NCBI GenBank assembly: GCA_011056835.1
Contig: DSDU01000121.1
Span: 1-33,294 of the forward strand
Length of the DNA stretch: 33,294 nt
Direction: 5' to 3'
DNA from: Deltaproteobacteria bacterium
GTDB taxonomy: Bacteria; Desulfobacterota; Syntrophia; Syntrophales; UBA6807
In this document: piece after piece, positions 21,648-25,631 of the stretch
Layout of the letters: every line of letters begins with the position of its first letter
How positions within the stretch are numbered: position 1 is the stretch's first letter
Notes under the pieces: generated by a model
What the model was told of the DNA's origin: nothing
The model's database searches: none
Seen by the model: only the letters and a program-made list of their open reading frames with translations
Position numbers and translations under genes: made by a program

Positions 21648-23192
21648 TTATCCGAATTCCTTCAGCAGCAGTTCTCTCAGTGTGATCTTTTCCAGTTTGC
21701 CCGTGACAGTTTTAGGAAGACTCTCAAAAAACCGTACATATTTAGGTGCCTTGTAGGCTGCCAGATTATCGCGGCAGAACCTGATCAGATCGTTTTCGGT
21801 CAGATAATGCCCTCCCTTTAATGCGATGCAGGCAACCACCTCCTCACCTTTTACCAGGTCAGGAACGCCCACGACCTGGGCCTCCGCAACGGCGGGGTGC
21901 GTGTACAGGAGGTCCTCGATTTCCTTGGGGAAGATTTTAAAGGCAGCCCGGGCAATCATGTCCTTTTTCCGGTCTTTAACGTAACAGTAGCCGTCATCGT
22001 CAAAAGAAACCAGATCACCCGTATGGAGCCAGCCGTTACGGAGGGTCAGAGCGGTTTCCTCAGGCTTATTCAGATATCCCATCATGACATTAGGTCCCCT
22101 GATTACCAGTTCGCCTATTTCTCCCGGCGCTACCGGGTTATCATTTTCATCAAACGCAGCCACTTCAATCTCGGGTACAATGGGAATGCCGCATGAATTT
22201 GCCTTCTGTACGCCCTTCCCGGGCAGCGGATTCATGAAGACAACCGGTGCCGCTTCCGTCAGGCCGTAACCTTCGCTCAGCGGGGTGAATTTTTCATTCC
22301 ATGCCTTAAGAATCGGCTCCGGCGTTACCGCCGCGCCGGTAACACAATACCGCAGGTTGATCCTGCGGGCATACTCATCGACCCGGGGGTGATTAAGAAG
22401 GGCATAATAAATGGTGGCTACACAATGGCACGCCGTCGCCTTATGCACGGCCATCGCATCCAGAAAGGCTTCCGGATCAAAGCGCTTTAGCCAGACAACG
22501 GTTCCTCCCACAATGAACAGTTCACCGATGACGTGGGTAAGTGCGTAGGAATGAAACAGTGGGAGGGCGCAGACTGAAATATCGCGATAGGTCGTTTCTG
22601 CCCAATCGGCACAATGCCGTGCATTCGACCATAGATTCAGGTGAGTCAGCATCACCCCCTTCGGTTCGCCGGTCGTTCCTGATGTATACAGGATTGCAGC
22701 GAGATCATCGGGTTTCACTGTTATCGCATCAAAGTCTGTTCCTTGGCTGTTCGACCAGTTTTCATAACCCATCAGGTCTTCGCCGTCATCGCCACCGACC
22801 ACAATCAGCTTCTCCACGGTATGTTCCATATTTTGAAGGACAAGGCGTGGAACGTTGACGACATCCCGGGAGGTGACCATAATCTTCGGTGCGCAATCCC
22901 TGACGACATAGCTCAGTTCCTTTTCCTTCCACATAACATTCAGTGGATTTACCACCGCCCCCATTTTAAGCGTTCCGAAGTACCAGAAAAAATATTCCGG
23001 ACAATTCGGCAGGAACAGAGAAATCCGATCCCCTTGCTTCACGCCGAGTTCGATGAGTCCGTTTGCAACCTGGTTAGTCTTCTCATTCAGCTCATGATAC
23101 GTCCACTGCTCATGATCGAAAATCAAGGCGACTTTATCCGGGTGGGCGTGTACTGAGTTTTCCACACACTGCGCAACATTAATTCCTCTCAT
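21648..23192 (-). CDS. AMP-forming acyl-CoA ligase (fatty-acid or aromatic acid type)
   Basis: The 514-residue acyl-adenylate-forming enzyme has P-loop-like motif YTSGTTGEPKGV (169-180), GYGLTEAAP (about 315-323), WLHTGDLVSFDDDGY, and the hinge DRKKDM. The C-terminal catalytic lysine is in PKTVTGKLEK. It activates a carboxylic acid to acyl-AMP and then acyl-CoA; the chain length or aromatic preference cannot be told. The frame continues upstream to 23390 through two terminator hairpins, but ATG 23192 is the evident start. GAGGAGGGG lies directly before it, and the N-terminus (MRGINVAQCVENSVHAHPDKVALIF) matches the family. Expression is probably controlled in the leader (see the terminators and promoter upstream). 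Confidence 0.92.
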   Translation of the reverse strand: MRGINVAQCVENSVHAHPDKVALIFDHEQWTYHELNEKTNQVANGLIELGVKQGDRISLFLPNCPEYFFWYFGTLKMGAVVNPLNVMWKEKELSYVVRDCAPKIMVTSRDVVNVPRLVLQNMEHTVEKLIVVGGDDGEDLMGYENWSNSQGTDFDAITVKPDDLAAILYTSGTTGEPKGVMLTHLNLWSNARHCADWAETTYRDISVCALPLFHSYALTHVIGELFIVGGTVVWLKRFDPEAFLDAMAVHKATACHCVATIYYALLNHPRVDEYARRINLRYCVTGAAVTPEPILKAWNEKFTPLSEGYGLTEAAPVVFMNPLPGKGVQKANSCGIPIVPEIEVAAFDENDNPVAPGEIGELVIRGPNVMMGYLNKPEETALTLRNGWLHTGDLVSFDDDGYCYVKDRKKDMIARAAFKIFPKEIEDLLYTHPAVAEAQVVGVPDLVKGEEVVACIALKGGHYLTENDLIRFCRDNLAAYKAPKYVRFFESLPKTVTGKLEKITLRELLLKEFG

Positions 23193-23216
23193 GTTTCCCC
23201 TCCTCTTGATTGAAAT

Positions 23217-23246
23217 AAAAAAGGCCGTGGAAAATCCACGGCCTTT
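23217..23246 (-). terminator. Leader terminator 2 (proximal to the acyl-CoA ligase)
   Basis: Read on the minus strand, a perfect 11-bp stem AAAGGCCGTGG/CCACGGCCTTT with a 5-nt loop continues into a run of six T (plus A-run 23217-23222). It ends only about 25 nt before the ligase start codon. No minus-strand gene lies upstream, so it can only act on leader RNA. Confidence 0.75.
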
Positions 23247-23251
23247 GGATG

Positions 23252-23288
23252 AAAAAAACCGTGGGCAGTCAGCCTGGTCTGCCCACGG
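23252..23288 (-). terminator. Leader terminator 1 (distal)
   Basis: Read on the minus strand, a perfect 10-bp stem CCGTGGGCAG/CTGCCCACGG with a 10-nt loop is followed at once by seven T (plus A-run 23252-23258). This is a textbook intrinsic terminator about 60-95 nt before the ligase start. Confidence 0.8.
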
Positions 23289-23416
23289 TCGTGCATGTCG
23301 GTTCAGTTCACAAGCACAGCGGGCAGACCCTGAAAAAAAGAAGAAAAAGCTAAAGAATCCGTCTGCTGTGATGTGTTGTGTTCCAGTCATGTATTGGTAA
23401 AATCCCGTTTTCCACT

Positions 23417-23445
23417 TTTCTAAGGAAGTTACGAGCCAAAGTCAA
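23417..23445 (-). promoter_or_regulatory. Probable sigma-70 promoter of the acyl-CoA ligase leader
   Basis: On the minus strand TTGACT (23445-23440) and TAGAAA (23422-23417) are 17 nt apart, matching five and four of six consensus positions. The start would be near 23410. Confidence 0.5.
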
Positions 23446-23850: not shown

Positions 23851-23858
23851 GGATGTTT

Positions 23859-23886
23859 GCCCGGCTCATGGTAGTCGGGCCTTTTT
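23859..23886 (+). terminator. Intrinsic terminator in the leader of the DEAD-box helicase gene
   Basis: GCCCGGCT (23859-23866) pairs with AGTCGGGC (23873-23880), including one G-U pair, around a 6-nt loop, followed by CTTTTT. It lies about 105 nt before the helicase start. No plus-strand gene lies upstream within 2 kb, so it would end either a small RNA or attenuated helicase leader transcripts. Confidence 0.6.
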
Positions 23887-23990
23887 GTTGCGACAGATAC
23901 GCTCATACGTGCGGTACGGGTCACCTGTTGGCAGACAACAGGGGGCAGGCAACACAGAGGATTCGTCAAAACGCGCGAAGGAGCATTATC

Positions 23991-25631
23991 ATGACAAACG
24001 AGTTTACTCAATTAAACCTGAAACCGCAGTTGGTGCAGGCATTGACCGATCTTTGCCACACTATCCCGACTCCGATCCAGTCAAGTATCATTCCGGTGAT
24101 GCTCAGCGGCAAAGATGTTATCGGTCAGGCACAGACGGGAACCGGTAAAACCGCAGCATTTTCATTGCCGATTCTCCAAAATCTTGCACAGGGGCACAAA
24201 CGGGTTCAGGCTCTTCTACTGGCCCCCACGCGGGAACTTGCCATACAGACGGCCGATGCCCTGTGTCAGTATGGCCGTCATGGCGATGTCCGTGTCCTGG
24301 CGGTCTACGGGGGGCAGCCCTACAGCAGTCAAATGGGTCATCTCAAAAAAGGCGTTGATGTTGTCGTCGGAACGCCCGGCCGTGTGCTTGACTTGATTCG
24401 GCAGAAAGCCCTTGATCTCAGCAGGATTTCAACGGTGGTTCTCGATGAAGCTGATGAAATGCTCAGCATGGGTTTCATAGAAGATATAGAAACCATTTTC
24501 AAGGAAACCCCGGCAATTCGGCAGACCGCTCTTTTCTGCGCAACCTTGCCCGAGGGGGTCCGTCGCCTTGCCGACCGCTACATGCGGAATCCCCAGGCCT
24601 TCACCATGGGGGGCAAAAAGCTTACGGCAGCAGCGATTGAACAGCGGTACTATCTGGTCAATGAAGTTGATAAGTTAGCCGCGCTTACCCGCCTGTTTGA
24701 GGTTGAACCCATCACCAGCGCACTGATTTTTGCCCGCACGCGGCTTGCCACCGCCGGATTGGCAAATGAACTGACCGCCCGCGGTTTCCCCGCCGAGGCA
24801 CTGAACGGGGACATGAGCCAGGATGCCCGCATACAGGCATTGAACCGTTTCCGGCACAATCAGAGCAGGGTGCTGGTGGCAACTGATGTCGCCGCACGGG
24901 GACTGGACATTGACGATATTTCTCATGTATTTAACTATGATATGCCTCAGGGTGCAGAAGTATATGTTCATCGCGTCGGGCGGACGGGCCGGGCCGGAAA
25001 AACAGGTATCGCGCTTTCCTTGGTCACGCCGGGAGAACGATGGAGCCTGGGGAAAATTGAATCGTATACCAGGCAAAAGGTTGCCCGGTCGTTTCTCCCA
25101 ACGGCAGAAGAGATTCAGTCCCACCGCGAGGCGAGCCTGATGGAACAGATGATGGTATGGCTCAATCGTGGCCGTTGCCAGCGGGAACGGGAGATTGTGA
25201 CGGAACTTGTGGAGGCGGGAAGCGATCCGATTGCCATTGCCGCAGCGGCGTTGAAACTTGCCCGTGCGGAAGAGAAACAACGCCCCATTGACCCGATGAG
25301 TGACGTGCAGGAGTGGCGCCCGGAGAAATCCGAAAAAATTGCGAAACGGAGAATCAGGAGGAACGGCGGGAATGACCGGAGCAGTGACTCCTTTGAAAAG
25401 GGGATGATACGAATCACGCTTGGTGTTGGCACGGCAGATGGTATTCGTCCCAACCAGGTGATGGGCTCACTCTCCCGCCATGCCGATATCCCGGGACATG
25501 CTATCGGCAAGATCAAAATTCAGAAACAATATACCTTTGTCGATATCCCGGAGAAATTTGCGGGACAGGTGCTGGCTAAAGCGGGAACCTACCGCATTGG
25601 CAGACGGAATATCGCCGTTGAACGTGCATAA
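23991..25631 (+). CDS. DEAD-box ATP-dependent RNA helicase (DeaD/CsdA-like)
   Basis: The 546-residue protein has a Q motif near residues 5-30 and motif I AQTGTGKT (47-54). Motifs Ia PTRELA, Ib TPGR and II DEAD (152-155) follow. Motif III is CAT (183-185) instead of the usual SAT, and motif VI is HRVGRTGRAG. The C-terminal 75 residues (RITLGVGTADGIRPNQVM to the end) match the DbpA-type RNA-binding domain, as in DeaD/CsdA that helps ribosome assembly and cold growth. ATG 23991 is chosen because AAGGAG lies 7 nt upstream. An in-frame start at 23853 would run through the leader terminator. The long structured leader suggests post-transcriptional control. Confidence 0.92.
   Translation: MTNEFTQLNLKPQLVQALTDLCHTIPTPIQSSIIPVMLSGKDVIGQAQTGTGKTAAFSLPILQNLAQGHKRVQALLLAPTRELAIQTADALCQYGRHGDVRVLAVYGGQPYSSQMGHLKKGVDVVVGTPGRVLDLIRQKALDLSRISTVVLDEADEMLSMGFIEDIETIFKETPAIRQTALFCATLPEGVRRLADRYMRNPQAFTMGGKKLTAAAIEQRYYLVNEVDKLAALTRLFEVEPITSALIFARTRLATAGLANELTARGFPAEALNGDMSQDARIQALNRFRHNQSRVLVATDVAARGLDIDDISHVFNYDMPQGAEVYVHRVGRTGRAGKTGIALSLVTPGERWSLGKIESYTRQKVARSFLPTAEEIQSHREASLMEQMMVWLNRGRCQREREIVTELVEAGSDPIAIAAAALKLARAEEKQRPIDPMSDVQEWRPEKSEKIAKRRIRRNGGNDRSSDSFEKGMIRITLGVGTADGIRPNQVMGSLSRHADIPGHAIGKIKIQKQYTFVDIPEKFAGQVLAKAGTYRIGRRNIAVERA

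Follow-up and report, generated by a model that had tools for sequence, protein, structure and literature searches.

Evidence for a Syntrophales-wide family of phenylalanine leader-peptide attenuators with tandem terminators ahead of CoA-ligase and liv transport genes

The acyl-CoA ligase gene in the 33,294-nucleotide stretch of Syntrophales DNA analysed here (contig DSDU01000121.1; hereafter the window) is preceded by a leader that is very probably a ribosome-mediated transcription attenuator sensing charged tRNA-Phe. The leader is one copy of a widespread family, absent from Rfam and present in nearly every Syntrophales genome searched, whose members conserve a reading frame, a bias of that frame towards Phe codons and a set of alternative RNA pairings. 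Ribosome-mediated Phe attenuation is well supported for the family and, by descent, very likely for the window leader, while the function of the window copy itself is uncertain. In our best reading, low charged tRNA-Phe would turn on the uptake and CoA-activation of what are presumably aryl acids, for aromatic amino-acid synthesis.

The first-pass annotation of this region had described a leader of about 218 nt carrying two intrinsic terminators 5' of the ligase, with no upstream gene for them to end, and this description holds. Terminator 1 (23288-23252) folds at −19.4 kcal/mol (z −4.1) and terminator 2 (23246-23217) at −20.0 kcal/mol (z −6.7), with 0 of 200 shuffles as good in either case; the antiterminator stretch from 23331 to 23252 folds at −35.3 kcal/mol (z −3.9). 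The length agrees with a possible promoter found by inspection, a weak match that is absent from a strict promoter scan. No minus-strand gene ends just upstream, the 5' neighbour being a divergent DEAD-box helicase gene (23853-25631, plus strand). Both complementarities noticed earlier were borne out: the 9-nt segment GGTCTGCCC (23329-23321) is the exact complement of GGGCAGACC (23284-23276) in the 5' arm of terminator 1, and CCACGG (23264-23259), within the 3' arm of terminator 1, can pair with CCGTGG (23241-23236) in the 5' arm of terminator 2, a pairing that is also conserved across copies. Since these elements are kept in related genomes, they are not a product of chance. A feature that the first-pass annotation did not note is the leader open reading frame, which starts at the ATG at 23390 and contains, just 5' of the antiterminator arm, a run of eight codons of which seven specify Phe. 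The parts of the leader, together with the related attenuators discussed below, are listed in Table 1.

Table 1. Positions of the leader elements and ligase in the window, and of sister attenuators on other contigs.
Feature	Position	Strand	Basis or locus
Possible sigma-70 promoter, TTGACT-17-TAGAAA	23417..23445	-	sequence inspection only
Putative transcription start of the leader	near 23410	-	from possible promoter
Leader-peptide start codon (MTGTQHITADGFFSFFFFF...)	23388..23390	-	ATG aligned with the leader ATG of three orthologous ligase leaders
Segment 1, may pair with segment 2 (CACAGCAGACGG with GGTCTGCCCGCTGTG region)	23359..23370	-	
Phe-codon run TTC TTT AGC TTT TTC TTC TTT TTT, presumed stall site	23334..23357	-	
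T7 run, one T short of the canonical frame	23333..23339	-	
Segment 2, antiterminator 5' arm GGTCTGCCC	23321..23329	-	
TGA at the canonical +18 position, out of the Phe-codon frame in the window copy	23308..23310	-	
Antiterminator hairpin (segments 2:3)	23276..23329	-	fold and covariation
Terminator 1 (segments 3:4) with U-run	23252..23288	-	fold and covariation
Possible cross-pair 4:5, would disarm terminator 2	23236..23264	-	
Terminator 2 (segments 5:6) with U-run	23217..23246	-	fold and covariation
Strong ligase ribosome-binding site GAGGAGGGG	23197..23205	-	sequence
AMP-forming acyl-CoA ligase, 514 aa, single-gene transcription unit	21648..23192	-	PF00501/PF13193
aro attenuator, same build	G000:C197:2916-3081	+	L140; likewise L131, L135
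Val-rich leader (MKHTAMAVVSVVVVVVSEG...), two terminators, before acetolactate synthase-like gene (ilvB)	G000:C38:15516-15614	+	L141
Trp-codon leader, paired terminators, before trpB-like gene	G000:C37:16648-16749	-	L143
Trp-codon leader, paired terminators, before trpE-like gene	G000:C95:9921-10051	-	L147
Ala-rich possible leader, two terminators, before aminotransferase gene	G000:C161:6252-6323	-	L142

A DNA search detected homologous leaders in 41 of 60 relatives, some of them short matches to the terminators only, as well as a second full leader copy within the source genome. A covariance model built from 27 copies matched in 152 of 155 Syntrophales genomes; about 64 of its matches exceed 80 bits, and the weaker ones include other amino-acid attenuators.

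The sequence 5' of the antiterminator arm is constrained as a coding frame. Stops and Phe codons were counted over the 16 codons preceding the arm in 63 copies (1008 codons). A short ORF that starts with ATG and runs through the arm is found in one frame in 58 of the 63 copies, as against 6 and 1 in the other two frames, and not a single copy has an in-frame stop before the arm in the Phe frame, compared with 15 and 56 copies in the others. Phe accounts for 359 of the 1008 codons. The encoded leaders average 25 amino acids with a mean of 6 Phe, contain no Trp and have Tyr at only 28 of 1500 residues; the second copy of the source genome encodes MDDRYEYAGRLFAFFSFFGEVCLLSS*. Counted from the first base of the arm's GTC codon, the leader stop is at +9, +18 or +24 nt in all 63 regular relatives, with +18 in 50 of them. 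Because the stop falls within this distance of the GTC codon, a ribosome of the usual footprint waiting there would cover the arm, while one halted early in the Phe run would leave the arm free.

The window copy is the only one examined that lacks an in-frame stop after the Phe codons. Its Phe frame passes through both terminators and joins the ligase, whose reading frame is open back to 23390 (580 aa). In an alignment with its G002 orthologue, the window has eight extra bases in the Phe run, which produces the T7 run and puts what follows out of frame. Given an additional T, or −1 slippage on U UUU UUU C, the window leader would read ...FFFFFFRVCPLCL* and have the canonical end FRVCPLCL*. The missing stop may reflect a one-base sequence error, frame-restoring slippage or a real mutation that weakens termination. 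If the T7 run is real, termination should weaken, because the ribosome would follow the polymerase into the terminators, and the response of the window copy to Phe could be weakened or lost. It is possible, if somewhat doubtful, that the window holds a decayed or altered attenuator, in which the ribosome would run through both terminators, transcription would be nearly constitutive and an N-terminally extended ligase of 580 aa might be made. Such decay would account for a T7 run one base short and a Phe frame open from the ATG into the ligase where every regular relative has kept its stop. Against it, the window copy has kept every RNA element as well as the Phe run, the leader ATG and the pairings are conserved, the canonical end would return if the homopolymer carried a one-base error in this draft assembly or if −1 slippage occurred, and the ligase still has a strong ribosome-binding site of its own. 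Among the loci of the order just one further copy is irregular: L122 (G012:C64) has a shifted leader frame with a stop inside the antiterminator arm.

The two mutually exclusive states of the RNA are both conserved. The arms of the terminators and of the antiterminator are kept and covary. Double changes are seen in 12 of the 21 pairs that make up terminators 1 and 2, whose covariation score is 0.203 compared with 0.147 when shuffled and at most 0.091 when slid. The 2:3 antiterminator arm is paired in 98.9% of cells across 66 copies; the whole antiterminator structure scores 0.191 (0.161 shuffled, at most 0.094 slid), and compensatory changes are present in its extension helix. Segments 1 and 2 also match each other within copies: the own 1:2 duplex has an energy of −25.4 kcal/mol versus −21.6 kcal/mol when segments are swapped between copies, and the own partner is the better one in 53 of 63 cases.

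The cross-pairing of segment 4, the 3' arm of terminator 1, with segment 5, the 5' arm of terminator 2, can form in 96.4% of cells among the 66 Syntrophales copies and in 98.6% of cells in a further set of 33 attenuators drawn from the phylum, figures that are not independent of the terminator helices, since each terminator pairs with itself and changes that keep both intact and their cores alike will also keep 4:5. Both alignments were fitted to a model that contained terminators 1 and 2 and left out 4:5. In eight of the 33 phylum copies a C-G pair of 4:5 has jointly become U-A, and GCCATGG-type cores occur in both terminators. Common ancestry might account for the likeness of the two cores, but the joint change favours selection. 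We infer a relay in which formation of 2:3 frees segment 4, which can then disarm terminator 2 through 4:5.

These features suggest the following mechanism. RNA polymerase would transcribe a leader encoding a peptide of about 25 amino acids with its run of Phe codons. A shortage of charged tRNA-Phe would stall the ribosome in this run, 5' of segment 2 (GGTCTGCC), allowing 2:3 to form and blocking terminator 1; the freed 3' arm of terminator 1 could pair with the 5' arm of terminator 2 and disarm that terminator as well. Readthrough would then reach the ligase gene or, in most relatives, a livK-livG-ligase-livHMF-(paaK) operon. With ample Phe, the ribosome would proceed to the stop just past segment 2 and cover that segment, so that terminators 1 and 2 form. 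Without translation, segments 1 and 2 would pair and termination would win.

The genes placed under this control are mainly transport and CoA-ligase genes. The gene next to the leader is livK in 55 of 67 fetched loci, and the usual order that follows is livK, livG, a gene for a 645-aa AMP-forming ligase, livH, livM, livF and often a PaaK-like ligase gene. Orthologues of the window ligase are present in 5 of 155 genomes at a strict threshold; the element precedes them in four (the source genome, G002, G033 and G017) and is absent from the fifth, G008. The solitary ligase has thus been recruited, in a minority of genomes, to a regulon that centres on the liv-ligase operon. The window ligase itself falls in the NCBIfam PRK06187 subfamily (494.9 bits against a cut-off of 476), does not match the phenylacetate-CoA ligase (PaaK) models TIGR02155 and NF041878, and classifies by sequence as a general or long-chain acyl-CoA ligase; its named relatives come from Syntrophales MAGs, and PaaK-like genes sit elsewhere in the regulon. 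An aryl-acid role for this enzyme is thus a prediction.

A regulon read out by Phe codons could also serve another end: the leader would sense Phe, and the genes would import amino acids (Phe and branched-chain) and activate fatty acids for catabolism in place of converting aryl acids to Phe. The name of the liv genes refers to branched-chain amino acids, the best scores of the window ligase are with long-chain fatty-acid ligases, and its orthologues in other orders adjoin a thiolase-like gene (L040, L041). We nevertheless consider this unlikely, as the operon holds two CoA ligases, one of them PaaK-like, and a ligase is needless for amino-acid import alone. A Tyr-rich version of the leader in other orders of the phylum (L211, L214, L216, L221; for example MVFSVSRRYDYYGYGYLRRSARR) also speaks against it, for it stands before livK-livHMGF-paaK-iorA-iorB, an operon that ends in genes for a reductive route from aryl acids. 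At these Tyr loci the alpha subunit of IOR (indolepyruvate ferredoxin oxidoreductase) exceeds its cut-off of 651 bits with a score of 737; PaaK and IOR beta are clear but score below theirs. Most simply, the Phe and Tyr versions would control the uptake and CoA-activation of aryl acids such as phenylacetate for reductive carboxylation to Phe and Tyr. IOR is above its family cut-off in 17 of 21 genomes. A leader of this kind was looked for at 20 IOR loci in close relatives, and a single weak match of 25 bits was the only sign of one. Genes for de novo Phe synthesis (aro-pheA) are present, so salvage would not be obligatory. Separately, in G002:C16, G010:C20, G012:C64, G014:C95 and G019:C25 the IOR alpha gene follows the liv attenuator at a distance of 20-27 kb, on the same contig and strand.

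That leader codons report the pathway is indicated by sister attenuators, in which the codons fit the genes that follow; gene names at these loci are our reading of the sequences, except where an HMM was scored. In the source genome, an attenuator of the same build with the leader MGKITVSYKVYSYFWYYFNTLVCPSLRRT (Phe, Tyr, Trp) precedes a DAHP synthase gene, and in relatives a complete aroF-aroB-pheA-aroDE-aroA-aroK-aroC-tyrA operon is headed by Phe/Tyr/Trp leaders. The Val-rich leader of the ilvB locus and the Trp-codon leaders of the trpB and trpE loci (Table 1) likewise fit their own pathways. For the Ala-rich possible leader at L142, a start codon was not identified. Phe/Tyr-rich leaders with CCATGG-core twin terminators also occur before aminotransferase-like genes (L207, L210, L223, L224). 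A wider proposal, plausible yet tentative, is that six-segment attenuators across the phylum let one ribosome decision set two terminators (off: 1:2 or masked 2, with 3:4 and 5:6; on: 2:3 and 4:5), that their Phe and Tyr versions mark a regulon leading from aryl acids to aromatic amino acids by import, CoA-activation and IOR, and that the window's solitary ligase joined this regulon late.

The first-pass annotation had left the choice between an attenuator and a riboswitch of no known class, with an acyl-CoA, a carboxylate, a tRNA or a protein as ligand. Conservation and covariation favour attenuation, of the ribosome-mediated leader-peptide kind known from trp and pheA, and what is sensed is most likely charged tRNA-Phe, by way of translation, in place of a ligand that binds the RNA. 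A metabolite riboswitch or T-box, binding a carboxylate, an acyl-CoA or uncharged tRNA directly with translation irrelevant, would share the alternation of terminator and antiterminator and would suit a target that looks catabolic. Rfam, however, gave no riboswitch or T-box match at the gathering threshold and nothing convincing at E values up to 10, the region 5' of the arm is constrained as Phe codons and not as a folded aptamer, and sister leaders switch codons with pathway; both readings were rejected as highly improbable. That the terminators belong to a small RNA or an upstream minus-strand transcript unrelated to the ligase is hardly credible: strong terminators are common at RNA ends and leader-only transcripts are expected in any case, but in nearly all genomes the element stands at the start of livK or of a ligase gene, and it covaries between its terminator and antiterminator states.

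Terminator and antiterminator are mutually exclusive structures in the E. coli pheA and pheST leaders. The Syntrophales family resembles these in that design, in its Phe-rich leader peptide and, as we infer, in its control by charged tRNA-Phe, which in E. coli acts through the leader peptides pheL and pheM (PMC11802643). It differs in having two tandem terminators with a possible 4:5 relay and in targeting CoA-ligase and liv transport operons where the E. coli systems govern Phe synthesis and tRNA charging, and there is no evident sequence relation. Amino-acid operon attenuators have reportedly been surveyed by comparative genomics in Proteobacteria (Vitreschak 2004, as cited in PMC1262725). 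A survey of Actinobacteria (Seliverstov 2005; PMC1262725), like that one, uses the same kind of evidence and concerns the same mechanism. The Corynebacterium glutamicum aroR-aroF attenuator, whose Phe-Tyr-Phe leader peptide precedes a gene of an aromatic pathway (PMC11802643), belongs to another phylum and has another target; the Phe/Tyr/Trp aro leaders found here are its closer parallel. In Bacteroides, as in methanogens, an AMP-forming arylacetate-CoA ligase and IOR have been proposed to act in aromatic amino-acid synthesis (PMC13285125). The regulon would have both enzymes in common with that route, which is a pathway and not a regulator; here it supplies the presumed purpose, the window ligase being only predicted to act on aryl acids. 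Searches of the open literature turned up neither a Phe attenuator on a liv or ligase operon nor any account of this family in Desulfobacterota, and nothing on point for tandem terminators with leader peptides or for phenylacetate-to-Phe conversion. The mechanism is thus a known one, the targets are new, the family is order-wide and the two-terminator relay is possibly new.

If leader codons tell what a regulon is for, the Phe and Tyr attenuators suggest a biosynthetic role for genes routinely annotated as branched-chain amino-acid transport and fatty-acid activation, and point to an overlooked synthesis of Phe from scavenged aromatic acids in these anaerobes. Aryl-acid salvage for aromatic amino acids thereby becomes directly testable in a syntrophic group that is difficult to grow in the laboratory. 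If it is real, the tandem-terminator relay would be a design outside the standard models of attenuation at a single terminator. Beyond Syntrophales, the same liv operon was also seen with a shorter FFFF leader (L205/L217 and L225).
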